A DNA stretch of 39,772 nucleotides from Flavobacteriales bacterium UBA1494. GTDB taxonomy: Bacteria; Bacteroidota; Bacteroidia; Flavobacteriales_E; Vicingaceae. Shown here piece after piece: positions 3 through 39,772 of this stretch. The stretch is taken from contig CAJJAT010000034.1 in the NCBI GenBank assembly GCA_905182175.1, positions 1 to 39,772 of the forward strand, written 5' to 3'. The stretch's first letter is position 1, and every line of letters begins with the position of its first letter. Under the pieces are notes generated by a model. The model did not search any database. It worked only from the letters and a program-made list of their open reading frames with translations, and had not been told where the DNA came from. Position numbers and translations under genes: made by a program.

Positions 3-923
3 ACCGGATTGTGGAGCAGTGTAACAAGTGGAATAACGATACTATCAACTAGTGACCCATTAAGTAGCGCAGTATTACAGCGAGGAGTAAATACGCTAGT
101 GTGGACGATAAGCAATGGGGTATGCGCATCGAGTAGCGATACGATTACCATTACTTATGACAGTGAGCCAACAATTGCAAATGCAGGATCAGATCAGACA
201 TTATGTGACGAGCGAAGTGCAACGATGGAAGCAAATATTCCACAAACAGGAATAGGTGTATGGAGTCTTTTAAGCGGATCAGGAATTTTGAGTAACGTCA
301 ACAATGGTAACGCAGCAGTAAGTGGTTTGAGCGACGGTGTGAATGAACTTTCATGGACCATCAGTAATGGGGTATGTGCATCAAGTAGAGATACGATTAC
401 TTTGAAAGGTGCGAATAATCCAGTTTTAACAATAATATCTGATACAGCAATTTTCAAAGAGGACGGAGTTAAGCTGTATGTAATTAGTGATATATTAACT
501 ACAATGCAGTATAGCTGGTCTCCAATGTTTAGTTTAGATAATGCTACTATTCAAACACCTTTTGCTCGACCTAATGAAGATACTCGTTATTCTGCAAGGG
601 TTACTACCCCAGATGGATGTTTTGCAGATGGATTTGTTGACATAACAGTTGTAAAACGATTAATAATACCAGGAGCCTTTACACCTAATGGAGATGGTCA
701 GAATGACACTTGGGAAATCAAGAATTTAGAAGAATTAGATTCTTATGATGTAATTGTTTATGACGGATTCGGTAGCGAGGTATTCCGGTCAAACTCATTT
801 AGCCCATGGGACGGTAAATACAAAGGGAATATGTTATCCGTTGGATCATATTATTATCTAATAAAATATGAATTAATGGGTAAATATGAAGATGTAACAG
901 GAGTTATTTCAATATTAAGATAA
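3..923 (+). CDS. T9SS type B sorting domain surface protein (gliding-motility-associated C-terminal domain), 5'-partial
   Basis: The reading frame is already open at base 3, so only the C-terminal end (about 306 codons) of a larger exported protein is present. Two Ig/PKD-like repeats of roughly 75 residues are visible, each closing on a WTISNGVC motif followed by a DTIT strand. The last 87 residues begin at IIPGAFTPNGDGQNDTWEI and end in GVISILR, which is the CHU_C / type B C-terminal domain recognised by the type IX secretion system. In this family the domain directs passage through the outer membrane and surface attachment that depends on an SprF-type partner. A PorP/SprF gene starts 3 bases downstream, which fits that pairing. 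The protein resembles the C-terminal half of the gene at the other end of the window. Its specific role (adhesin or gliding) is inferred. Confidence 0.88.
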   Translation, partial: TGLWSSVTSGITILSTSDPLSSAVLQRGVNTLVWTISNGVCASSSDTITITYDSEPTIANAGSDQTLCDERSATMEANIPQTGIGVWSLLSGSGILSNVNNGNAAVSGLSDGVNELSWTISNGVCASSRDTITLKGANNPVLTIISDTAIFKEDGVKLYVISDILTTMQYSWSPMFSLDNATIQTPFARPNEDTRYSARVTTPDGCFADGFVDITVVKRLIIPGAFTPNGDGQNDTWEIKNLEELDSYDVIVYDGFGSEVFRSNSFSPWDGKYKGNMLSVGSYYYLIKYELMGKYEDVTGVISILR

Positions 924-1951: not shown

Positions 1952-4141
1952 ATGAGGACAGCAAAATATATATTAATACTTATTGCCTATTTTACATTTA
2001 ATAGCGTTTATCTATTTAGTCAGACGTCAATAAATCATATTGAATCAGTTAAAGAGATAAAAGCTATTAATACAAAAGGGGAAGAGAGTAACCCAATAAT
2101 AGCTCCGGGCGGAGATAAAATGTACTTCATGCACATGAGTTCTAATAAGAAAAAGGCTTCAATTTTAGGGCAAGAAATTTGGACGAGTGAAAAAATTGAA
2201 GGAGAATGGTCAAATGCCACCCCTTGGCAAATTTCATCTAATGACAATGCAAATAATGTTATAATTGGAGTTACTAATAATGAGAAAAGACTTTACTTAT
2301 TTAATTCTAATGACACAAGAAACAAGTTTGCTAAGGGATTGTCATATGTTCAATTAAATGAAGGAGGAGTATTTCACAGCCCTATTGGAATAAGTATTCC
2401 AGAATTTGAAATTGCTTATGGGTTTTATTCATTTTATGTTACTCCTGATGAAGAGCAATTTTTTGTTGCAACTACAGCCGACAGTTCTGATTATGAAGAT
2501 TTATTTGTTAGTTTAAAACAAGAAGACGGTAGTTGGGGGGAGTTGATTAATCTAGGTTCTACAATAAATACACCATTTATAGAGACAACGCCATTTTTAT
2601 CTGCAGATAAAAAGGTATTGTATTTTTCTAGTGATGGTCATGACGGTTTTGGATCAGCTGACTTGTTTAAATCCGAACGTATTGGAGATGGATGGACGAA
2701 CTGGACACCACCGGAGAATTTAGGAGAAAACATTAATTCGAAAGGGTTTGATGCATCTTATATTGTATTAGATGAGTGGACTGCAATGTTTTCGAGTAAT
2801 CGAAATCGGACGTTCAGTGATATTTATGAGGTAACTTTTGCACGCGAAAACCAAACGATTGCGTTAATCGTGTCATCAGATACTAATATTTTAGAAGGTA
2901 GAATATCATTAACAAAATTGGATACAACTTCTACAGCACCTATTAAATTGTTGGTAAAAGACCAATTAGGAATTGTGGTGGATACGATTTATGCAGATAA
3001 TAAGGGGAAATTCACGTATAAAAAATTAACAGCATCAAAATATACTATTTCCTTGATGGATGGCAATGATACAGAAATGATAGACATATCTATTGCAGAC
3101 TTGTTAGCATCAAGCGAAGCGACAATAACAAGTACAGAATCAACAGTTAAAATGGTTGAAGCTAATAAGGTGGGAGCTGCAACAGACAAATTGGAGAGTT
3201 CTTTACTGAAATCAATGGAAACTGTGCGTGATTCCTTAAGGGATATTTATGAGGGAACTTTTGTGCCAGAAAATCAAACGATAACGTTAATCGTGTCATC
3301 AGACCCTAATATTTTAGAAGGTATAATATCATTAGCAAAATTGGATACAACTTCTACAACTCCTATTAAATTGTTGGTAAAAGACCAATTAGGAGTTGTG
3401 GTGGATACGATTTATGCAGATAATAAGGGGAAGTTCACGTATAAGAAATTAACAGCATCAAAATATACTCTTTCTTTGATGGATGGGAATGATACGGAAA
3501 TGATAGACATATCTATTGCAGAGTTGTTAGCATCAAGCGAAGCGGCAATAACAAGCACAGAATCAACAGTTAAAATGGTTGAGGCTAATAAGATGGGAGC
3601 TGCAATAGACAAATCGGAGAGTTCGTTGCTAAAATCAATGGAAACAGTGTGTGATTCCTTGTCAAAAGGATCTATAGTTCAACAAATAGCTAAAAGAGTA
3701 GAAACACAAGAAAATTCAGTAGATCTAAAAGAAGCGGCTAGTTTATCTAGAATAGAAGGAAACTCTTCGGAGGACTTAGAAGAGGAATGTTTAGAACTTT
3801 TGGTATACTTTGGTTTCGATTCATATTCAATTTCAGATATCGGCATACACCAAATTGATAAATATATTGAAGGATTGGAATTGGTAGAAGGAAGTATTTT
3901 GATTATAACAGGTCATACAGATTCTGATGGACCTTCAGCATATAATAATATTCTTGGAGAACGAAGGGCAAATGCTGTTAAAGAGCACTTTATTCAAAAA
4001 GGAATTACAGTAAATTATAATGTTACATCAAAAGGGGAAGAGGAACCAATGGCATTAAATTCAACGGAGCAAGGTAGAAAATCGAATAGAAGGGTCTCGG
4101 TAAGTATATCAGAAAACGGGACCAAAAAAATTCCAGCATAA
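1952..4141 (+). CDS. OmpA family protein with PD40 propeller and an internal tandem duplication
   Basis: A 729-residue exported protein with a signal peptide (1-24, ending LFSQ). Residues about 35-295 carry PD40/WD40-like propeller blades (repeated YFSSDGHDGFGSADLF-type motifs). Two copies of a 141-residue segment follow, each containing a carboxypeptidase-regulatory-like beta fold (KLLVKDQLG, DNKGKFTYKKL). Residues about 612-725 form an OmpA C-terminal peptidoglycan-binding domain (VYFGFDS, GHTDSDG, ERRANAVKEH, NRRVSV). This architecture resembles PorE-like T9SS accessory proteins that tie an outer-membrane PorP complex to the cell wall. It follows a PorP/SprF gene in the same order as the trio at 34-39.8 kb. 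The paralogues at 6178 and 34048 have the same order of domains, but their middle segments are not near-identical repeats. Confidence 0.88.
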   Translation: MRTAKYILILIAYFTFNSVYLFSQTSINHIESVKEIKAINTKGEESNPIIAPGGDKMYFMHMSSNKKKASILGQEIWTSEKIEGEWSNATPWQISSNDNANNVIIGVTNNEKRLYLFNSNDTRNKFAKGLSYVQLNEGGVFHSPIGISIPEFEIAYGFYSFYVTPDEEQFFVATTADSSDYEDLFVSLKQEDGSWGELINLGSTINTPFIETTPFLSADKKVLYFSSDGHDGFGSADLFKSERIGDGWTNWTPPENLGENINSKGFDASYIVLDEWTAMFSSNRNRTFSDIYEVTFARENQTIALIVSSDTNILEGRISLTKLDTTSTAPIKLLVKDQLGIVVDTIYADNKGKFTYKKLTASKYTISLMDGNDTEMIDISIADLLASSEATITSTESTVKMVEANKVGAATDKLESSLLKSMETVRDSLRDIYEGTFVPENQTITLIVSSDPNILEGIISLAKLDTTSTTPIKLLVKDQLGVVVDTIYADNKGKFTYKKLTASKYTLSLMDGNDTEMIDISIAELLASSEAAITSTESTVKMVEANKMGAAIDKSESSLLKSMETVCDSLSKGSIVQQIAKRVETQENSVDLKEAASLSRIEGNSSEDLEEECLELLVYFGFDSYSISDIGIHQIDKYIEGLELVEGSILIITGHTDSDGPSAYNNILGERRANAVKEHFIQKGITVNYNVTSKGEEEPMALNSTEQGRKSNRRVSVSISENGTKKIPA
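2819..3664 (+). repeat. Two tandem 423-bp direct repeats inside the OmpA gene
   Basis: The segment starting gatatttatgag at 2819 recurs at 3242, a period of exactly 423 bases (141 codons), and the match runs to about 3661. The copies are nearly identical over long runs (for example the codons for KLLVKDQLG and for MDGNDTEMIDISIA). The frame is preserved, so the protein gains a second linker domain. The high identity implies a recent duplication or ongoing gene conversion. Confidence 0.9.
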
Positions 4142-4440: not shown

Positions 4441-4518
4441 TCAGCAAAAAGTAAACTATTTAGGGTTTAGATTTAAGAGAGATATTTTTTAAATTAATAA
4501 TCTTTAAAAATTGTTCAA

Positions 4519-4852
4519 ATGACTAAGAAAAAAAGTGCGAGTTCGTTAATCAGCGAACTAAAGAGAAAAACTAGAAAAGCCTACAGTTCAGAAGACAAAA
4601 TCAGAATTGTTATTGAAGGTATGCGAGGCGAAGTGTCTGTCGCAGAGCTGCGTCGTACAGAAGGCGTAGCTCAAACCAACTACTACAAAGTGGAGCAAAG
4701 ACTTCATGGAAGCCGGTAAGAAGCGTTTAAATGGCGATACAATGCGTGAGGCGAATACCTCTGAGGTTACCTCGTTAAAGCATGAAAACCATGACTTAAA
4801 GGAATTTGTAGCCGAACTGTCTTTGGAAAACAGGAGGTTGAAAAAAACTTAA
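4519..4852 (+). pseudogene. IS3-family transposase OrfA (frameshifted)
   Basis: The N-terminal half encodes a transposase-type helix-turn-helix (SSEDKIRIVIEGMRGEVSVAE, with EGVAQTNYYK as recognition region). At about 4690 a single-base frameshift moves the frame. The next frame continues WSKDFMEAGKKRL and a leucine-rich heptad stretch (LKHENHDLKEFVAELSLEN, RRLKK) before a TAA at 4850. Together they make the usual OrfA layout of HTH plus coiled coil of roughly 110 residues. The frameshift means no functional OrfA is made. Assignment to the IS3 family rests on this layout and on the DDE orfB downstream. Confidence 0.8.
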
Positions 4853-4880
4853 GTGGAGACAACTAAAACGGAAAAGGTAG

Positions 4881-5853
4881 ATGCATCATACACAATCAGA
4901 AAAGATGGAAATTATACGTTTAGTTGAACAATCAGACACAGGAGTCACAAGGACTTTAAAGGATTTAAAAGTCCACAAAACGACCTTTTACAAGTGGTAC
5001 AACACCTATCTTGAAAACGGGTATGACGGCTTGGCTAGAAAGCAAAACAAGCGCTGCGGCGGCAGGAATAAAAAAACGAAGCGCATAGAGACACTGTAGT
5101 TGAAATGGCCATAGAAAAGCCGGAACTTTCTTTCAGAGAGCTCGCTTGGGACATTACTGATAAGCATAATTATTACATCAGCGAATCCAGTGTTTACCGT
5201 ATTTTGAAGGAAAACGGATTGATTACAACGCCAAGTTTAGGGTTATGAGTGCTTCCGATAACTTTACAGACAAGACAACTGCTGTAAACCAAATGTGGCA
5301 AACAGACTTTACCTACTTTAAAATCTACGGCTGGGGATGGTATTATCTTTCCACAATTTTAGATGACTATAGCAGGTATATTGTCACTTGGAAGCTTTGT
5401 GCTAATATGAAAGCAGAAGATGTCACAAACACCTTAGACGAGGCTTTAGCCAAAGCAAACCTTAAACACAGCAATCCACCTAAATTACTCAGTGACAATG
5501 GGTCTTGTTACATCTCGCATGAGCTGGCAGCGTACATAAAAGAAAAAGACATGAAACACGTTCGCGGCAGACCGTTACACCCACAAACACAAGGTAAAAT
5601 AGAGCGTTATCACAGGTCGATGAAAAATGTGGTCAAACTGGACAATTACTTCTATACCAGGGAATTGTAGCAAAAAATGGAATGGTTTGTGCATTACTAA
5701 AACAACGAACGATACCACGAATCAATTAACAACCTCGTGCCAGCTGACGTTTACTTTGGACAGGCTGACCGAAAATTAAAACGAAGAATAATGATTAAAA
5801 ACAGAACACTAAAAGCAAGAAAAAAACAATATAAAAAATTAACTCTAAATTAG
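4881..5853 (+). pseudogene. IS3-family transposase OrfB with DD(35)E integrase core (multiply disrupted)
   Basis: The coding sequence runs through three frames. The first (4881 on) gives the HTH region EKMEIIRLVEQ and HKTTFYKWYN. The second (about 5096-5230) gives VVEMAIEKPELSFRELAW and SSVYRILKENGLI. The third (5245 on) gives the rve integrase core. The catalytic residues are visible: Asp in MWQTDFTYF, Asp in LLSDNGSCY, and Glu in QGKIERYHRSM exactly 35 residues later. Two in-frame stops follow, TAG at 5668 and TAA at 5698, before the conserved NNERYHESINNLVPADVYFG tail and the final TAG at 5851. Two frameshifts and two nonsense codons make it inactive. Confidence 0.85.
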
Positions 5854-5902
5854 GCCAGAGTCTCTTTTAAATTTTACCCCAAAAAGTTCACTTTTGGCTG
5901 AA

Positions 5903-6082
5903 GACCTACACATGATAGTTTCGAATGCAAGAGTAGATGTAGCACTCGAATACCTTACAGAAAAGGGGGTAAATCCTACAAAAATTGTGAAACAACCCAC
6001 AGGAGAATCGATGCCAATTGCTAATAATGGCACGGTAGGAGGGAGAGCTAAAAATAGACGCGTGGTTCTTATTTTAAAATAG
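5903..6082 (+). pseudogene. OmpA C-terminal domain, 3' remnant abutting the IS element
   Basis: Immediately after the right end of the IS, an open frame encodes the last 60 residues of an OmpA-like peptidoglycan-binding domain: SNARVDVALEYLTEKGVNPTK, then QPTGESMPIANN and GRAKNRRVVLIL, ending at TAG 6080-6082. It aligns with the tail of the next gene (GRAKNRRVQVIIK). Everything upstream of the second half of the OmpA fold, including signal peptide and propeller, is absent. It is therefore the leftover of another paralogue whose 5' part was lost at the IS junction. A short protein could start at the TTG or ATG inside it but would have no export signal. Confidence 0.75.
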
Positions 6083-6177: not shown

Positions 6178-8106
6178 ATGAAGAAGTTTTTTGCATCCTT
6201 GATTATAGTTATAACAATTGCAGGTAATACTGTTTTTGCACAGTTGATTCTACCAAAAATTAATCCAATAAACAAGCAAACAACTTTCAGTAGTAAAGAA
6301 GAAGATAGCAATCCACTTCCATTTAACGATGGGAATTCAATTTATTACAACAGACTGTATATTGATGGGACGGGGGAAAATGCAACTGTTACATCTCAAG
6401 ATGCTTGGTATGCTACTAAGGGTGAGGACGGCTGGGAAAAGCCATATCGATTATTAAAGGAGGACGATTTACTTGGTGAAAACTTAATTGTTGGAACGAA
6501 TAACGCAGGGACAAGAATATACGTTTTTAATGCTCTTCCCGAAAAGGATACACTAGTAAGAAAATTATTTTACCTTGATAAGGCCGAAGAAAAGTACAAA
6601 TGGTCTGATCCGGTAGAAGTGAAAATACCAGGATTAAAATTTGGCAGTGGGTTTCTTCACTTCTATGTCAATAACGAGGAAACGGCCATACTGATTAGCA
6701 AAACGCCAAAGGGTAAAGATAAGGATACGGATTTGTTTGTTAGTTTAAATGATACTAATGGTAACTGGAGTTCAATCATAGATTTAGGTTCAACTATAAA
6801 TACCAATCGATTGGAAGTAGGGTCCTTTTTAACGAATGACTTAACAACGCTATATTTTTCTTCTGAGGGGCATGGAGGATTCGGAGCAGCTGATATTTTT
6901 GTAAGTATGAGGTTAGATGATTCGTGGCAAAAATGGTCTAAACCGATGAATCTTGGTGAACCAATTAATTCTGCTGAATACGATGCATCTTTCACCATAG
7001 CGAATGTAAATGAAGTTTATTTTACATCAGACAGAGCATCGCAACACAGTAATATTTATCAATGTACAATAGTAGGAGAGGTCGTCTTGATTAATACAGA
7101 TACGATTAGAGGGGTTTTTATAAACAACGGAGAAGCTGTGCCTGGCGTTCGTTTTGTTATAACCGACTCTCAAGGTAAGGTAGTAGGGAATGTCATAACG
7201 GATAAAGTTGGGGGTTTTAAATTCAAAAAACTAGAGGGGCAACAGGACTACCTTGTTAAGTTAGATGAAGAAGATTCGGATTTTGTGGGGAGTAAAATTT
7301 ATTTTATTAATCAAAAAGGTGTCAAGGCAGAGCGGTATGTTTTGACCGAAGAAGGGGCTTTTTTAAATTCAAATGATTTAGAGTCTGCTGAAACAATAAC
7401 TGGAGTGTTTAATTATAACTCTTTACCTGCAGTTCAATCGGCGTTAGTTGTACTAGATGTAAATGGATTTCCTTTAGACACAATCTTTACTGATTCTAAA
7501 GGTAACTTTAGTTATTCTTTATTGAGATTAGAAGGAGGCTTTAGTATAATACCACTGAATATGACGGATGATGACTTTGTTAACGTAGATATTTTTCTAG
7601 TAGACGGGAGTGGGCAAAACTTAAAATCACTAAAGCCAAATGAAGTTCATTTAGTGGATATTGGCGACGATAAGACAACTCCTAGTCCTTCTATGGCGGC
7701 TGTTCTTCAGAGAGCAATTGACGTGGAGGATAATTCTGATAACAAAAATGAAATTGCTGCTATTAGCAGTGCAACAGGCGATTTGGATATCATTTATTTT
7801 GATTTTGGACAAATAAGTGCTCCTTTAGAGGAATTAGATAAGTTATCGCTAATTGTGAGTGCGGTGAAAAGGATTGAAAACAAAACAATCATGCTTATTG
7901 CATATACAGACAACGTTGGAGACGAAAGTGTAAACCTAGGTATTGCAGCAGCAAGAGGGGCATCAATAAGAGCGGCGTTAGTTAAAAGAGGAGTTGCTGT
8001 TAATAAAATTACATTAATTACCAAAGGAGAAACCAAGCCTGTCGCACCGAATAACACAGCCGAAGGTAGAGCAAAAAATAGAAGAGTACAGGTGATTATT
8101 AAGTAG
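6178..8106 (+). CDS. OmpA family protein with PD40 propeller
   Basis: A 642-residue exported protein with a signal peptide of about 22 residues (MKKFFASLIIVITIAGN, ending VFAQ). PD40 blades occupy about residues 35-290 (LYFSSEGHGGFGAADIFVSM is the clearest). Two carboxypeptidase-regulatory-like beta domains follow (TDKVGGFKFKKLEG and TDSKGNFSYSLLRLEGG). The last 108 residues are the OmpA peptidoglycan-binding domain (IIYFDFGQIS, AYTDNVGDE, AARGASIRAALVKRGV, GRAKNRRVQVI). It is a paralogue of 1952-4141 and 34048-36024 but has no PorP gene directly before it, only the OmpA remnant and the IS. It may have belonged to a module whose other members were lost, or it may act with the trio upstream. 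It likely sits in the periplasm bound to peptidoglycan. Confidence 0.87.
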   Translation: MKKFFASLIIVITIAGNTVFAQLILPKINPINKQTTFSSKEEDSNPLPFNDGNSIYYNRLYIDGTGENATVTSQDAWYATKGEDGWEKPYRLLKEDDLLGENLIVGTNNAGTRIYVFNALPEKDTLVRKLFYLDKAEEKYKWSDPVEVKIPGLKFGSGFLHFYVNNEETAILISKTPKGKDKDTDLFVSLNDTNGNWSSIIDLGSTINTNRLEVGSFLTNDLTTLYFSSEGHGGFGAADIFVSMRLDDSWQKWSKPMNLGEPINSAEYDASFTIANVNEVYFTSDRASQHSNIYQCTIVGEVVLINTDTIRGVFINNGEAVPGVRFVITDSQGKVVGNVITDKVGGFKFKKLEGQQDYLVKLDEEDSDFVGSKIYFINQKGVKAERYVLTEEGAFLNSNDLESAETITGVFNYNSLPAVQSALVVLDVNGFPLDTIFTDSKGNFSYSLLRLEGGFSIIPLNMTDDDFVNVDIFLVDGSGQNLKSLKPNEVHLVDIGDDKTTPSPSMAAVLQRAIDVEDNSDNKNEIAAISSATGDLDIIYFDFGQISAPLEELDKLSLIVSAVKRIENKTIMLIAYTDNVGDESVNLGIAAARGASIRAALVKRGVAVNKITLITKGETKPVAPNNTAEGRAKNRRVQVIIK

Positions 8107-32833: not shown

Positions 32834-33144
32834 GATTCTTATTTAAAATTGCGAAGATAAAAAAATAGATAGAGAGATTCAACTATTAACATAATCTGCA
32901 TGAATTATGGTAAAATTATTTTGGCCTTGTAGCTAACAAGGCCAATAGGACATACTACGCTAGGTCAATTGTCTGAGTTACCTCACATTTCTTCATAGTC
33001 TCAGGCGATGACCAATTGAGGCTACACGGCTTGGTTTAAATTAGTAAGAAATTGAAATACCCAGAAATAAGGCATCTGTCAAAAATGGAAAAGAGGGGAT
33101 TTAATTGGTGGAAAAGATTAAGTTAGACCCTGTTTTAATGTACA
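32834..33144. other. Intergenic stretch with two inverted repeats, no gene seen
   Basis: A perfect 10-base stem (ttggccttgt at 32921-32930, acaaggccaa at 32936-32945, loop agcta) is followed by a looser pair: ggtcaattgtctgag near 32965-32979 and ctcaggcgatgacc near 33000-33013. No open frame with coding character was found. The first hairpin could end minus-strand transcription from outside, or belong to a small RNA; neither is supported further. Confidence 0.4.
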
Positions 33145-33630
33145 TTGAAACTCCATTTTCTAGATTTAGAGGTTATAAGTGAGCTTAAAGTTTTAAAAGG
33201 TGTAATTCTCACCATGAACAATGAGGATTCGTTTATTAAAAAAGCAAAGGGTAATGGTGTAGACGGTTATTTACTTAAAAAGGCAGATTGGGAAGAGTCT
33301 TACAATGCATTTTACTCTGTAAGAAAGAGCAATAGAAATTTTAGCGTTGAGGTTACGAAAATTGGATTACATCCTAAGAAATTCAAGACTTCTAGCCTCG
33401 TTATTGACAATGATACTGTTCAACTTTTTAAACTAAAAGAACGAAAAATTGATATTTTAAAGCAGACGGGAGAAGGCTTTTATAACAAAGAAATCTGTGA
33501 GAAACTTCATACTTCTCATTGCATTGTGAATACTCAATGAAATAATTTAATCAAAAAATTGGAGGTTCTTAAAATTGCAAGATTTACCAAGTCTGGAATT
33601 AAAAACGGACTATCAAACCAGAGTAATTAG
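33145..33630 (+). pseudogene. NarL/LuxR-type response regulator remnant
   Basis: The sequence opens midway in a receiver domain: VISELKVLKGVILTMNNEDS (the ILTM strand), then KAKGNGVDGYLLKKADWEE with the conserved Lys. A linker follows, and then the LuxR helix-turn-helix: LKERKIDILKQTGEGFYNKE, ICEKLHTSHCIVNTQ. A TGA at 33538 replaces what should be Arg (THRNNL in the family, CGA to TGA). The frame continues NNLIKKLEVLKIARF to TAG at 33628. The first 50 or so residues, including the phosphorylated Asp, are missing. It is 5'-truncated and carries a nonsense codon, so non-functional. Its partner kinase is not in the window. Confidence 0.75.
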
Positions 33631-34047: not shown

Positions 34048-36024
34048 TCAATTTATCTTGATTTCAACTCTTCTGTTTAGCGCTCTTCCTTCATCGGTTG
34101 AGTTATCGCCTTTAAACATTACCTCTCCATAACCATAGATATCAATTCTGTTCTTACTAATATTATTGTCAGTTAAATAGGCTCTAGATGCTCTTGCTCG
34201 CGCGCTGGCAACTTTAACATTTGTCTCTTTTGATCCAATGTTGTCAGTAAATCCAATCATTGTAACTCTAGATTTCGTTTTACTTTTTAATGAATTAATA
34301 ATTTTATCTAAAGTTACTTTGTCATCGACAGTTAATACTCGTTCATTAAAATCGAAATATATTGTTTTTCCATTGAGTTCTTTTACAGTGTCAGTAGCAG
34401 AAGGTTGAGGTAGTTTGTTTACAGGAACAGTCTTGTTTTCAATTTCGCTAACTTTCGAGTGTTTCACTTCAACTTGTTGTTTATTATTAGAATTAGTGGT
34501 GGTTGTAATCTGGGTATTATTTTCTGCAATTAGTTCTTCTTTTTTAACTGGACTCGTATTTACAATCAAATTAGACAGTTTATCTCCACTTTTATTTATT
34601 GCGAAGATTTCCATTTTATCAATTAAATCATCATCCAGGGTCATAATAGGGCGGATGGTGAAGTTTTCGTCTCCTTTTAACCTTCTATAGGAGAACTTTC
34701 CATTTTCATCAGTAACTAGGGTATCCACAGGGAATTTATTTTCATCATAGACTATTAACATGATATTTTGTTGAGCTAGATTGTTGTACTCAAGAAGGCC
34801 ATCAACTATTTCAGAGTCAACATTTCCGGCGATACTTGTGTTTGACTCTGTAGTTTTTAGGGTTAGTCTTTCTAGTTTTTTTCCATTCTTATCGATTATA
34901 TAAATCTTTGCATTTTTTTGTAATTCTGTATTTTCCTTTTCAAGTTGAATGCTATACGCTTGATTATGTGATTTAGCATACAAAAATTGACCTACGTTAT
35001 CTGTTCTTTCTTTTTCAACTAAATTTCCTTCTATATCTAGTACTAATAAATCAAGATTTTCTAGAGGCATTGCTTCGAAGAACACTTGTGCAAAAACTTT
35101 TTCCTCCGCTTTAACTATGATTGGCTCCTCTTTTATTTTAGTCGAATAAATATCGCTAAATGGGCCGTCCCTGTTACTTGTAAAAAGCGCCTCTTTTTCG
35201 TTGCTAAACATAAAGTAAGCATCAAATGCATCAGAGTTAATTGGAGCCCCTAAATTTAATGGTTCTGACCAATTGGACCATGAATCGTCTAAACGGTTGG
35301 CTGTAAATACATCCATGCCACCTAAACCCTTGTGGCCATCACTTGAGAAGTAAAGCGTTTTGCCACTTTGATCTATAAAGGGAGTAATTTCTGTACCATC
35401 TGTATTTATTATTGAACCTAAATCTCTTAGTTCTCCCCAGTTTCCTTTAGCGTCTTTTAAGCTCACAAATAAGTCGCTTTGGGTTGAAGTGTCTGATGGA
35501 GACATTCCTATTAGCAGTATTTTCTCATTGGGAGTCATATATAACGAGTAGAGCCCCTGACCTATTGTAAAGCCTGGAACGTCTACCTTTTCTAAGTCGC
35601 TCCATATTCCTTCTGCATCTCTTTTGGTTACTGCAATTCCTTTCGCCAGTTTTCTTCTTGTCTGGATAGAATTGAAGAGGTAAAGAGTATTGCCATCGTT
35701 GGAAACACCTATTACAGCATTGTTACCATTGTCATTTGCTTCTTCAAACAAATTTGACGGTGCACTCCAAGACGTTTCATTGAATTCAGAAGACCAAATA
35801 TCCTGGCCCGTAACTCTTTGTCTCATCGATCCAGCTATTATTGTTCGGACAAAGTACATCTTCTTTCCGTTTAGATACGGGAACGGCATACTCTCTTCGT
35901 TTTTAGAGCTTAGCTGGTCTATTTTTTTTAGATCGGCAAACTCGGGGAGGGGGGGTTGTGCTTTTGCAGAAAAGAATAACCCCAAATTCAATAGGAGGAC
36001 AATTGCTAAATATTGCTTTTTCAT
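34048..36024 (-). CDS. OmpA family protein with PD40 propeller
   Basis: A 658-residue exported protein. I place the start at ATG 36024 because it begins a normal signal peptide (MKKQYLAIVLLLNLGLFFSAKAQ); the frame runs on to 36081 but that would add 19 residues overlapping the preceding gene. PD40 blades fill about residues 30-290 (LYFSSDGHKGLGGMDVFTAN, EALFTSNRDGPFSDIYS). Two carboxypeptidase-regulatory-like domains follow (DENGKFSYRRLKGDENFTI). The last 107 residues form the OmpA peptidoglycan-binding fold (IYFDFNERVLT, GFTDNIGSKE, ASARARASRAYLTDNNI, GRALNRRVEIKI). It follows the PorP/SprF gene by 25 bases. It is a paralogue of 1952-4141 and 6178-8106 and is probably a periplasmic PorE-like partner. 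Confidence 0.88.
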   Translation of the reverse strand: MKKQYLAIVLLLNLGLFFSAKAQPPLPEFADLKKIDQLSSKNEESMPFPYLNGKKMYFVRTIIAGSMRQRVTGQDIWSSEFNETSWSAPSNLFEEANDNGNNAVIGVSNDGNTLYLFNSIQTRRKLAKGIAVTKRDAEGIWSDLEKVDVPGFTIGQGLYSLYMTPNEKILLIGMSPSDTSTQSDLFVSLKDAKGNWGELRDLGSIINTDGTEITPFIDQSGKTLYFSSDGHKGLGGMDVFTANRLDDSWSNWSEPLNLGAPINSDAFDAYFMFSNEKEALFTSNRDGPFSDIYSTKIKEEPIIVKAEEKVFAQVFFEAMPLENLDLLVLDIEGNLVEKERTDNVGQFLYAKSHNQAYSIQLEKENTELQKNAKIYIIDKNGKKLERLTLKTTESNTSIAGNVDSEIVDGLLEYNNLAQQNIMLIVYDENKFPVDTLVTDENGKFSYRRLKGDENFTIRPIMTLDDDLIDKMEIFAINKSGDKLSNLIVNTSPVKKEELIAENNTQITTTTNSNNKQQVEVKHSKVSEIENKTVPVNKLPQPSATDTVKELNGKTIYFDFNERVLTVDDKVTLDKIINSLKSKTKSRVTMIGFTDNIGSKETNVKVASARARASRAYLTDNNISKNRIDIYGYGEVMFKGDNSTDEGRALNRRVEIKIN

Positions 36025-36049
36025 GACGTGTGTTTTGTGAAGGTGTTGG

Positions 36050-37027
36050 TTAAAAAAGGGTAAGCCCAATAAAAATTTCATGACTTCCGCTAGATCGTTC
36101 TCTAATTTCTGTCAAGGTATAGTCGAATGAATAACCAGCTTTGAACAGATGGTTAAATTGAAATCCAAATATGGCCGCAAGTGCGCTTTCATTTCTGTAT
36201 GTCAATCCGATATTCATCACTTCCTTGTACATTAATGTACCGTTCACTTCAAAACTAGTTGGAAGGTTTCCAGTTTTTTTAATCAACATATTTGGTGTCA
36301 ACCTAAAGTCATTTGATAAATCGAAGTGATACCCACCACTTATTAGGTGTTCCATTTCTAGGCTTGTTGGGTCGTTTCCGGTAGTAACATTGGCAAGCTT
36401 AAGTTGGTTCCTTAATATTTGTCGACCGCTATACCCCACAAAAAACTTGTCGCTATACAGGTAAGTTCCTGCGTCTGCATTAAAAAGATTTGTATTTGAG
36501 CTTTCAGCGTATGAATTATACGTGGGGTCATTGTTGCTTAAAACGGTTGCCTCTGACTCATTAAAGCCGAAATTACTTAGGCCTCCAGACAATCCAAAGG
36601 AAAGATATAAGCCATTCTTAATTGGGAGGTGAAGAGCATAAGTTAACATCGCTTGTGTCTTTTTAAATGCCCCGTTTTCTCCCGAATTTAAAGCGCCACC
36701 TAAGGCATGTTTTACGTAGGATCTTCTTCCTCTTAACTGTCTTGGTGGTCTAGCCGTTTTACTTGTGTAAAGTGCAGATCTTTGAAAAGACTTAGGTCTA
36801 TTTAATACTGTATGACCGGTTGCATAATACGATCTGGGAGCATTTGAAACTCCTGCCCACTGTTGCCTAAATCCAATGGCAACATCTGTGTGGTCTTGAT
36901 TTCCTGCCGCTGCTGGGTTAATTAAGTAGTGATTTTGGTTCCACAATGTGTATTGCTGAAGTATTTGACCAAAGACTGACGTCCCGGTTAATAACACAAA
37001 GCTTATTGTTAAGATAGAATTTTTCAT
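36050..37027 (-). CDS. PorP/SprF family type IX secretion system membrane protein
   Basis: A 325-residue barrel protein with a signal peptide (MKNSILTISFVLLTGTSVFG). The family opening follows: ILQQYTLWNQNHYLINPAAA, then GFRQQWAGVSNAPRSYYATG and HTVLNRPKSFQRSA, plus regularly spaced beta strands to the C-terminal aromatic strand ending GLTLF. It corresponds segment by segment to 927-1919 (for example NPAAAGN and GHTVLNRPK are shared), so the two are duplicates that have diverged. It lies 13 bases after the adhesin gene and 25 bases before the OmpA gene. By analogy with SprF it should act on the adhesin encoded immediately upstream. Confidence 0.9.
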   Translation of the reverse strand: MKNSILTISFVLLTGTSVFGQILQQYTLWNQNHYLINPAAAGNQDHTDVAIGFRQQWAGVSNAPRSYYATGHTVLNRPKSFQRSALYTSKTARPPRQLRGRRSYVKHALGGALNSGENGAFKKTQAMLTYALHLPIKNGLYLSFGLSGGLSNFGFNESEATVLSNNDPTYNSYAESSNTNLFNADAGTYLYSDKFFVGYSGRQILRNQLKLANVTTGNDPTSLEMEHLISGGYHFDLSNDFRLTPNMLIKKTGNLPTSFEVNGTLMYKEVMNIGLTYRNESALAAIFGFQFNHLFKAGYSFDYTLTEIRERSSGSHEIFIGLTLF

Positions 37028-37040
37028 AGTTTCTATTTAT

Positions 37041-39772
37041 TTATCTAAGTATTGTAATGATTCCATTTAATGCTTCAGTTTTACCGCTGAAGTCTGTAAC
37101 TGTGATAACGTAATAGTAAGTTGTAACAGGAAGATCATTCCCATTTCTTCTTCCATTCCAATAGTCATATCGTGATGTAGAGTATACTTCAGACCCTAAA
37201 GGATCATAAACAACCACTTCCATTTTAGCAAATTGTTCGAAGTTTTTAATTTCCCACACATCATTGATTCCATCACCGTTAGGGGTAAAACTTGTAGGGA
37301 TTTCAAGTAATGTTTTAACTAACACTGTGATGGTATCTCTTCCAATACACCCTTGCTCTGATGTAACTAGAACTGTGAATTCGGTATCTTCCTCAAAACC
37401 AAAACCGGTAGAAGTGCTTGAACTTGAAGCATCATCTAACAAGAAAGAGGGTTGCCATTGGTACGTTAAGTTTTGACTATTTAAAGAGTCTGGAGTTATT
37501 ACAGCCGATAAGGTTGCGCCGTCATCTTTGAACACCGTTTTGTCAGGTCCAACATCAACAATAGGATTTTTTCCTACCACAATGTTAACCGTATCAAAGC
37601 TATCGTTACATGTACCGTTGCTTATCGTCCAAACGAATTGGTTTAAACCGTCACTTAAATTACTAACAAAACTGTTTGAAACGTTAGGGCTCATAATACT
37701 GGCACTCCCAGAAATTGTAGACCATGTTCCTATTCCGACTGTAGCGTTATTTCCTCCAAGAGATACTTCGTAAACTTCACATAGAGTTATATCAGCTCCT
37801 GCAGAAGCGAATGTTGGTTGATCATCGTAAGTCACTTTAATAGTGTCTCTACTTGGATCACATACTCCGTTGCTAATTGTCCAGATTAAAATATTTTCTC
37901 CTCTGACTAACCCCCTAATGGTCGTAGAAGGAGAAGAGCTATCATCAAAAGTAACACCTGTTGTAAATGTAGACCAAGAGCCAATTCCTACGATTGGTGT
38001 GTTTGCATTAAGATCGAATGTGTCAACACAAATATTAACGTCAGCACCTGCTGTAGCCAATGTAGGGAAATCTTCCCTAGTTACTGTGAAGCTGCAAGAA
38101 TCTACATTTCCGTTTACATCTGTTATTACAAAAGTGTTGGTTGTTGTTCCTACCGAATAACTCCCTCCTGAAGGTATTCCAGATGATTGAATCACTGATA
38201 AGATTGAACAGTTATCACTTCCAGTTGGAGCGTTAAATGTAAATATTGGATCACATATCACCGTATCAGCAATACATGTTATTTCTGGCTTAATCGTATC
38301 AGATACTGTAACTACAACACTTACAGAATCAATATTTCCATTTGCATCATTTACAATCAGTTGAGCTGTATTCGCTCCTACATCAGCACAGGTGAATGAG
38401 CTTTTGCTTAAAGTAAGAACAGGAGTTCCACAGTTGTCTGTTGTTCCATTGTCAACATCTGCAGTAACAATAGAGGCATTTCCTAAAGCATCCACATACA
38501 CTGTTATTGGCTGAGTAATAACGGTTGGTTTAATTGTATCAGATACCGTCACTACAACACTTGCAGAATCAACGTTGCCGTTTACATCTGTTGCGATGAG
38601 TTGCACTGTATTCGCTCCAATATCAGCACAAGTGAATAAGCTATTGCTTAAAGTAAGAATAGGAGTTCCACAGTTGTCTGTTGTTCCATTCTCAACATCT
38701 GCAATAACTATAGAGGCATTACCAGAAGCATCTAAATAAACTGTTACTGGTTGAGTAATAACGGTAGGCTTAATTGTATCAAGTACAGTAACCGTAGCAG
38801 TCGTAGAGTCAACATTAGAGTTAGCATCTGTAACATAAAGTTTAACTGTATTGGCACCAACTTCAGAACAATCGAAGTTAGAAGAGTCAATAGCAAGTGT
38901 AACAGTAGAACAGTTATCAGCAGACCCATTATCCACATCCGCTGCAGTTATTGAAGCGTTACCTGTAGCGTCCAGATATACAGTAATATTTTGTGCTACT
39001 ACCGTTGGGTTTAAAGTATCAAGTACAGTAACCGTAGCAGTTGTAGAGTCAACATTAGAGTTAGCATCTGTAACATAAAGTTTAACTGTATTGGCACCAA
39101 CCTCAGAGCAATCGAAGTTAGAAGAGTCAATAGCAAGTGTAACCGTAGAACAGTAATCAGCAGACCCGTTATCCACATCCGCTGCAGTGATTGAAGCGTT
39201 ACCTGTAGCGTCTAGGTATACAGTAACATTTTGTGCTACTACCGTTGGGTTTAATGTATCAATTACAGTAACCATAACAGTTGTAGAGTCAACATTAGAG
39301 TTAGCATCTGTAACATAAAGTTTAACCGTATTAGTACCAACTTCAGAACAATCGAAGTTAGAAGAGTTAATAGCAAGCGTAACCGTAGAACAATTGTCAG
39401 CAGACCCGTTATCTACATCAGCAGCAACAATCGTTGCATTCCCTGAACCATCCAAGTAAACCGTGATGTTTTGTGCAACCGCTGTTGGGTTTAATGTATC
39501 AATTACAGTAACCGTAGCAATTGTAGAGTCAACATTAGAGTTAGCATCTGTAACATAAAGTTTAACTGTATTGGCTCCAATGTCAGTACAAGTGAATGTT
39601 GAAACATCAATTGCAAGTGTAACTGGCCCACAGTTATCGCTTGAACCGTTGTTAACATCAGCAGCAACAATGGTTACATTACCTAGAGCATCTAAATTAA
39701 CTGTTATGTTCTGAGTAATTGCAGCTGGAGAAATTATATCTGCAACTGTTACAACCGCTGTTGCAGTAGAAG
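37041..39772 (-). CDS. Large repeat-rich T9SS type B surface protein, 5'-partial at window edge
   Basis: The minus-strand frame is open from the window end to a stop at 37041, giving about 910 residues of the C-terminal part of a larger protein. From the edge inward come six or more repeats of 80 residues (pattern TVYLDATGNASITAADVDNG, then NFDCSEVGANTVKLYVTDAN), a HYR-like segment around 38.1-38.3 kb (TCIADTVICDPIFTFNAPTG), two WTISNGVC-type repeats, and the CHU_C/type B sorting domain (LEIPTSFTPNGDGINDVWEI to GIITILR). The ends match the protein at 3-923. The repeats contain paired cysteines. Surface display through T9SS is family knowledge; an adhesin role is inferred from repeats and the SprF partner. 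Confidence 0.88.
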   Translation of the reverse strand, partial: STATAVVTVADIISPAAITQNITVNLDALGNVTIVAADVNNGSSDNCGPVTLAIDVSTFTCTDIGANTVKLYVTDANSNVDSTIATVTVIDTLNPTAVAQNITVYLDGSGNATIVAADVDNGSADNCSTVTLAINSSNFDCSEVGTNTVKLYVTDANSNVDSTTVMVTVIDTLNPTVVAQNVTVYLDATGNASITAADVDNGSADYCSTVTLAIDSSNFDCSEVGANTVKLYVTDANSNVDSTTATVTVLDTLNPTVVAQNITVYLDATGNASITAADVDNGSADNCSTVTLAIDSSNFDCSEVGANTVKLYVTDANSNVDSTTATVTVLDTIKPTVITQPVTVYLDASGNASIVIADVENGTTDNCGTPILTLSNSLFTCADIGANTVQLIATDVNGNVDSASVVVTVSDTIKPTVITQPITVYVDALGNASIVTADVDNGTTDNCGTPVLTLSKSSFTCADVGANTAQLIVNDANGNIDSVSVVVTVSDTIKPEITCIADTVICDPIFTFNAPTGSDNCSILSVIQSSGIPSGGSYSVGTTTNTFVITDVNGNVDSCSFTVTREDFPTLATAGADVNICVDTFDLNANTPIVGIGSWSTFTTGVTFDDSSSPSTTIRGLVRGENILIWTISNGVCDPSRDTIKVTYDDQPTFASAGADITLCEVYEVSLGGNNATVGIGTWSTISGSASIMSPNVSNSFVSNLSDGLNQFVWTISNGTCNDSFDTVNIVVGKNPIVDVGPDKTVFKDDGATLSAVITPDSLNSQNLTYQWQPSFLLDDASSSSTSTGFGFEEDTEFTVLVTSEQGCIGRDTITVLVKTLLEIPTSFTPNGDGINDVWEIKNFEQFAKMEVVVYDPLGSEVYSTSRYDYWNGRRNGNDLPVTTYYYVITVTDFSGKTEALNGIITILR
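38281..39772 (-). repeat. Tandem 240-bp repeats in the adhesin gene
   Basis: Units begin at 38281, 38521, 38761, 39001, 39241, 39481 and 39721 with an exact period of 240 bases (80 codons) and no indels. Those at 38761, 39001, 39241 and 39481 are nearly identical (for example gtagagtcaacattagag occurs in each), while those nearer the C-terminus have diverged. The array continues past the window end. Confidence 0.93.

Follow-up and report, generated by a model that had tools for sequence, protein, structure and literature searches.

The window analysed here, a stretch of 39,772 bp, is the entire contig C34 of the draft genome G000 (3.33 Mb, 45 contigs). At each of its two edges lies a trio of genes encoding, in the same order, a cargo protein with a type B CTD, a PorP/SprF protein and an OmpA/PorE-like protein; the trios, left (L) and right (R), stand on opposite strands, converge on each other and are 29.9 kb apart (4141 to 34048). 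This layout, which an earlier sequence-only reading of the window had described with a spacing of about 30 kb, is borne out by the open reading frames and by the family scans alike. The gap between the cargo gene and the porP/sprF gene is 3 bp in the L trio and 13 bp in the R trio, repeats of 240 nt are present in the R cargo gene, and the R OmpA-like gene overlaps the stop of its PorP gene if the first ATG is taken as its start. A decayed IS3-family element and the tail of another OmpA-type gene separate the left trio from a third full-length OmpA/PorE-like gene (OmpA2); at the other side, a decayed response-regulator gene lies between the conserved metabolic block and the R trio (Table 1).

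Table 1 Features of the window in order along the forward strand. Cut-offs are 35 bits for TIGR04131 and 90.55 bits for TIGR03519.
Feature	Position	Strand	Evidence
Left (L) cargo, C-terminal 306 aa only, 5' end open	3-923	+	CHU_C 66 bits, TIGR04131 61.6 bits
L-type PorP/SprF, 330 aa	927-1919	+	TIGR03519 221 bits; L clade 99/98
L-type OmpA/PorE-like protein, 729 aa	1952-4141	+	PD40 (propeller) and OmpA
Decayed IS3-family element, limits approximate	4441-5904	+	rve 96 bits, IS3 115 bits on 5245-5670; frames broken
3' remnant of another OmpA-type gene, ~60 codons, ending ..GRAKNRRVVLILK stop	~5900-6082	+	phmmer E 4.9e-12
Third full-length OmpA/PorE-like gene (OmpA2)	6178-8106	+	OmpA 54 bits
Interval of mainly metabolic genes	8236-32833		Colinear from ~8.9 kb with G001, G002, G003 and G019
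Decayed response-regulator gene	32982-33617	+	tblastn 41% over 222 aa, E 1e-42
R-type OmpA/PorE-like protein, 677 aa	36081-34048	-	OmpA 67 bits, PD40 40.5 bits
R-type PorP/SprF, 325 aa	37027-36050	-	TIGR03519 217 bits; R clade 91/94
Right (R) cargo, C-terminal 909 aa, 5' end open	39770-37041	-	CHU_C 69.7 bits, TIGR04131 62.2 bits, HYR 33.9 bits

Two details of the trio genes are recorded here as observations. The L OmpA-like gene contains a tandem duplication of 423 bp (2819-3660, 92% identical), which is common to G001 and was not seen in G003 or in the second L module of G015 (G015_L2). An NRWG-like motif that several further type B CTDs in G000 have is missing from those of the L cargo (666-917) and the R cargo (37047-37304); by eye, its place reads YDGFG or similar in L and R.

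As the window spans the full length of C34, it is the contig ends that truncate the two cargo genes, and what had been called window edges are contig ends. The symmetric position of the trios is therefore real as a position and in part an effect of assembly. As a general property of contig ends, such a position proved weaker than expected: of the 90 contig ends of G000, 9 break off within a cargo-like ORF of 100 aa or more, and the two ends of C34 belong to these 9. No exact overlap was found between the ends of C34 and any other G000 contig end, so that the scaffold C22-C34-C15 is one of synteny only. The missing parts of the L and R cargos may be long, judging by the cargos of G015 and by the complete R-type cargo of G010 (2839 aa). 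Elsewhere in the assembly, the right end of C12 and the left end of C44 carry collagen-like repeats of 54 nt with stretches of 91-95% DNA identity, and these two ends probably belong to one gene. Contig ends of draft Bacteroidota genomes can fall in T9SS cargo genes, and a symmetry of edges can then look meaningful.

The OmpA-like proteins of the two trios score 94 (L) and 124 (R) bits with the PorE profile NF052230, against a cut-off of 600, the best stretch starting from profile positions 294 and 148, respectively. Pfam gave no TPR match in them, and no cysteine was seen by eye in the N-terminal signal region of the translations of the three OmpA-like proteins of the window, as a lipoprotein signal would require. 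On these sequence features (no TPR, low PorE score, no N-terminal cysteine), the L and R proteins are classed as OmpA-like and not as PorE proper. A structure model of the OmpA-like protein, of low confidence (mean pLDDT 51), shows strands resembling those of a propeller, an OmpA domain and additional beta domains, and Foldseek returned mainly propeller-type proteins for it, with low TM-scores; the matches listed for the OmpA-like profile among solved structures cover the C-terminal OmpA part only. The PorP model was useless (mean pLDDT 28), and the PorP pair had no match by sequence among solved structures up to E = 1.

None of the 13 L/R PorPs described below has a C-terminal cysteine, so the Cys-X-Cys of the SprF-type gliding carrier is not found in them. 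In G000, 14 PorP genes lie above the cut-off, and by position 10 of them are directly preceded by a match to the type B CTD, in one case below the CTD cut-off. Seven of 13 other G000 PorPs (loci L018, L020, L022, L024, L025, L027 and L029) have a single cysteine at most five residues from the C-terminal end (for example ..CPSF, ..CPTF, ..CPKF), which is not Cys-X-Cys and possibly represents another form of track attachment. A rule by which a PorE-like neighbour excludes a C-terminal cysteine was considered and fails, as the PorPs on C1 and C28 of G000 have both. The T9SS/gliding core of G000 includes GldK (578 bits), which adjoins a PorP gene on C29; a GldJ-type gene adjoining a PorP gene on C8 reaches 450.6 bits, just under the GldJ cut-off of 458.2, and 387.1 bits with GldJ_short, above its cut-off of 382.9.

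A search of 60 genomes, G000 included, yielded 13 L/R modules in 11 genomes, each of the 13 with the order cargo-PorP-OmpA. L modules were found in G000, G001, G002, G003, G015 (two, in direct tandem) and G029; R modules in G000, G006, G010, G019, G023 and G024. G000 is the only one of the 11 genomes with both, and R-type modules are spread across several genera of the family. The two tandem L modules of G015 lie on its contig C9 at 377072-407821 and 411670-427224 (loci L097, L098, L099 and L120), with cargo ORFs of 10,249 and 5,184 aa; behind each cargo ORF come a PorP gene and an OmpA-like gene of its own.

The PorP tree (27 rows) recovers L (99/98) and R (91/94, not starred) and sets L and R together (100/99) against 14 other PorPs; the tree of cargo C-termini (13 rows) and the concatenated tree both split L from R at 100/100, and L stands at 100/100 in the OmpA tree. 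Departures from this picture are seen in a cargo tree of 100 columns, where R is not one clade (two changes) and placement of the outgroup is poor; in a 24-row OmpA tree, where neither the R-type nor the OmpA2 genes make up a clade of their own; and, under midpoint rooting, in the OmpA tree of 13 rows, where the L rows fail to form a single group, with G015_L1 and G029_L on the R side. Between the two trios of the window, protein identity is 45% for the cargo C-terminus, 44% for PorP and 33% for OmpA; four-fold sites of conserved residues are 22-43% identical and look saturated. By these trees, L and R are two old lineages that split before the genus arose, each inherited as a unit.

The L lineage shows signs of transfer. 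G015 belongs to another genus, and G015_L2 branches within the L modules of g1, the genus of the window. Forcing the g1 L modules together costs 18 (PorP), 59 (OmpA) and 66 (concatenated) log-likelihood units and is rejected by the AU test (p 0.004, 1.9e-5 and 2.3e-6, respectively). G015_L2 is 82% identical to the window L PorP, against 75% for the same-genus G002; a carboxylase has the reverse order (85% for G015, 93% for G002), as has HemW (50% for G015, 71% for G002). For comparison, the window R PorP shares 52% identity with its R-type counterparts in G010 and G019, for which HemW stands at 60 and 58%. L modules stand at different loci in different genomes. We consider it likely that a whole L module has been transferred between genera. 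Codon-position GC was tried as a sign of foreign DNA and rejected, since GC3 shows nothing marked in the L OmpA (25.1%) and L PorP (30.2%) genes against 28-32.5% in four interval genes. Transfer of T9SS components, mainly porR, is the subject of PMC7323717; no description of transfer of whole cargo-PorP-PorE modules was found among the titles and abstract openings of the papers that the searches listed.

The genes between the trios have a history of their own. In G003, a single contig of 225 kb carries the counterparts of genes on C22 of G000 (pabA, ALDH), then the interval, then those of genes on C15 of G000 (MscS and its neighbours), with no trio at either border of the interval and no detectable OmpA tail; the L trio of G003 lies on another contig. 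As this block keeps its order without border trios, the trios of G000 stand at the borders of an old conserved block. At the right border, G004 has an intact homologue of the response regulator (Response_reg, GerE) adjoining the same glycosyltransferase. At the left border, the L module of G000 occupies the slot between the aldehyde dehydrogenase (ALDH) gene and OmpA2 in which the relative G010 keeps an R-type module: there, ALDH (78% identical to that of G002) is followed by cargo, R-type PorP, OmpA and OmpA2. OmpA2 directly follows the trio OmpA in both G006 and G010. G004 has a longer OmpA tail upstream of OmpA2, with its best matches among the R type (3e-15), and G001 has weak pieces.

The tail in the window itself has its best phmmer match in G029_L, then G006_2, G024_2 and G006_R, and phmmer does not tell the subfamilies L, R and OmpA2 apart in it; we therefore rejected the tail as a clear R relic, and a relic of an R module is indicated by G004 and by position. 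The neighbouring IS3 element has imperfect terminal repeats (TCAGC..GCTGA), matched by eye and not recovered by blastn. Taken together, the IS3 element with the OmpA tail, the G010 slot and the G004 tail suggest that a module was replaced at the left site: an older one would have been lost and the L module would have arrived, presumably in that order.

Inverted repeats by which the 30-kb interval is flipped or cargo ends are exchanged would be expected to have the convergent, inverted geometry that the trios show. The sequence-only reading had named both outcomes and had itself thought frequent recombination unlikely, and on the latter point the DNA agrees: a check for tracts of more than 50 identical bases found none, the longest tract identical between the trios being 14 bp, where 30 codon shuffles gave 11-15 bp, so that no long identical inverted repeats flank the interval. 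Its order is kept in the relatives G001, G002, G003 and G019, among which no inverted order was seen, and inversion of the interval is therefore not needed; as cargo, PorP and OmpA all show one L/R split, no cargo end was swapped between the lineages in this sample. On DNA identity and kept gene order we rejected inversion and gene conversion between the trios, and we leave this explanation next to no probability. The same reading had preferred a second copy of one trio, made by local duplication and then specialised. In its favour, the nearest relative of the R PorP within G000 is the window L PorP (44%, next 31%), and the two best matches of the R OmpA in G000 are the other two OmpA-like genes of the window. 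However, each PorP has closer relatives in other genomes (65-89% identity for L, 47-57% for R), the L/R split predates the genus, both types occur together in 1 of the 11 genomes, and the left module bears signs of transfer. A local duplication is thus very improbable, and the description of the right trio as a second copy of the left one is not supported as it stood.

Two further explanations concern the L modules and the position of the block. The odd tree of the L modules might reflect hidden paralogy, that is, old duplicates and losses in place of transfer between genera, and the two tandem L modules of G015 speak for it; this would leave unexplained that G015_L2 PorP, at 82%, stands above that of G002, at 75%, when two core genes have the reverse order, and we hold it to be improbable. 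It is somewhat less improbable, though still unlikely, that the block from OmpA2 to the glycosyltransferase has moved together with both trios; a single type A cargo gene would then connect C22 with C15, and C34 would lie elsewhere. The right end of C22 encodes a glycine-rich domain and an SprB repeat and aligns with the N-terminal portion of G015_A (37% over 336 aa, in part repeats); the right end of C15 encodes a type A sorting domain along with SprB repeats and matches the C-terminus of the same protein (51% over 300 aa) in a compatible orientation; and the lack of an exact overlap of C34 with any contig end would fit as well. Against such a move, the C22 genes, the interval and the C15 genes are contiguous in G003, so that a colinear arrangement needs none, and the left end of C9 shares repeats of ~71% at the DNA level with the right end of C15, which the C22 end does not. 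A moved block would bear on position only and is compatible with our main reading of the modules. We consider it likely that the two trios are old separate lineages, neither a recent inverted duplication nor recombining with each other, that L modules have passed between genera as whole units and that the L module of the window sits in the slot of an R-type module. The geometric symmetry of the trios is real and has no meaning for recombination; transfer and turnover of whole modules are probable.

By analogy with characterised systems, each trio would be a T9SS type B surface-protein module, a kind of module already known. The large cargo, with its type B C-terminal signal, would be secreted by the T9SS; a dedicated PorP/SprF-like barrel would take it from the translocon and hold it in the outer membrane; and the OmpA/PorE-like protein would tie this barrel to peptidoglycan, which would keep the cargo on display at the cell surface as a static protein. 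With no C-terminal cysteine and an OmpA-like neighbour in all 13 L/R modules, static, wall-anchored display is the best reading. More tentatively, and with some doubt on our side, cargo-shuttle-anchor modules could be exchangeable surface cassettes that pass intact between genera, replace an older module at a preferred site and leave IS scars and truncated anchor genes behind; static giant adhesins would then undergo turnover with the match between shuttle and cargo signal preserved. If the transfer is true, it is a natural test of the specificity between shuttle and cargo: the co-transferred signal and PorP should work together, and within one cell the parts of L and R should not be interchangeable.

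Three known systems resemble these modules in part. SprB - SprF, a gliding adhesin pair (PMC12635249), is alike in that a giant type B cargo rich in repeats precedes an SprF-like carrier dedicated to it; according to that source, the mobile SprF bonds to the gliding track through a C-terminal Cys-X-Cys. The 13 L/R PorPs differ in that they have no cysteine in the C-terminal tail and a PorE-like gene is present instead, and a disulfide link to the GldK track is accordingly not expected. In Porphyromonas gingivalis PG1035 - PorP - PorE (PMC9143113), as in the proposed modules, a type B cargo is held by a PorP that is bound to the peptidoglycan-binding PorE; the PorE-PorP-type B complex was shown there, and PorE was proposed to tie it to peptidoglycan. 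In contrast to that complex, the cargo of each window module is accompanied by an adjacent PorP gene and OmpA-like gene belonging to that module, and TPR and lipobox were not seen in the window OmpA-like proteins. The Flavobacterium johnsoniae operons (PMC12618676) differ from those of the window in lineage, in the TPR that the OmpA-like proteins of the window do not have, in the second OmpA-like gene found in some relatives of the window and in cargo size, which reaches 10,249 aa in G015. As reported there, each type B substrate that was tested depends on a PorP/SprF-like shuttle of its own, and genes for substrate, shuttle and PorE-like protein occur together in five F. johnsoniae operons, for which static complexes were proposed; in Fjoh_3952 - Fjoh_3951 - Fjoh_3950, the three kinds of gene and their order are like those of the two trios.
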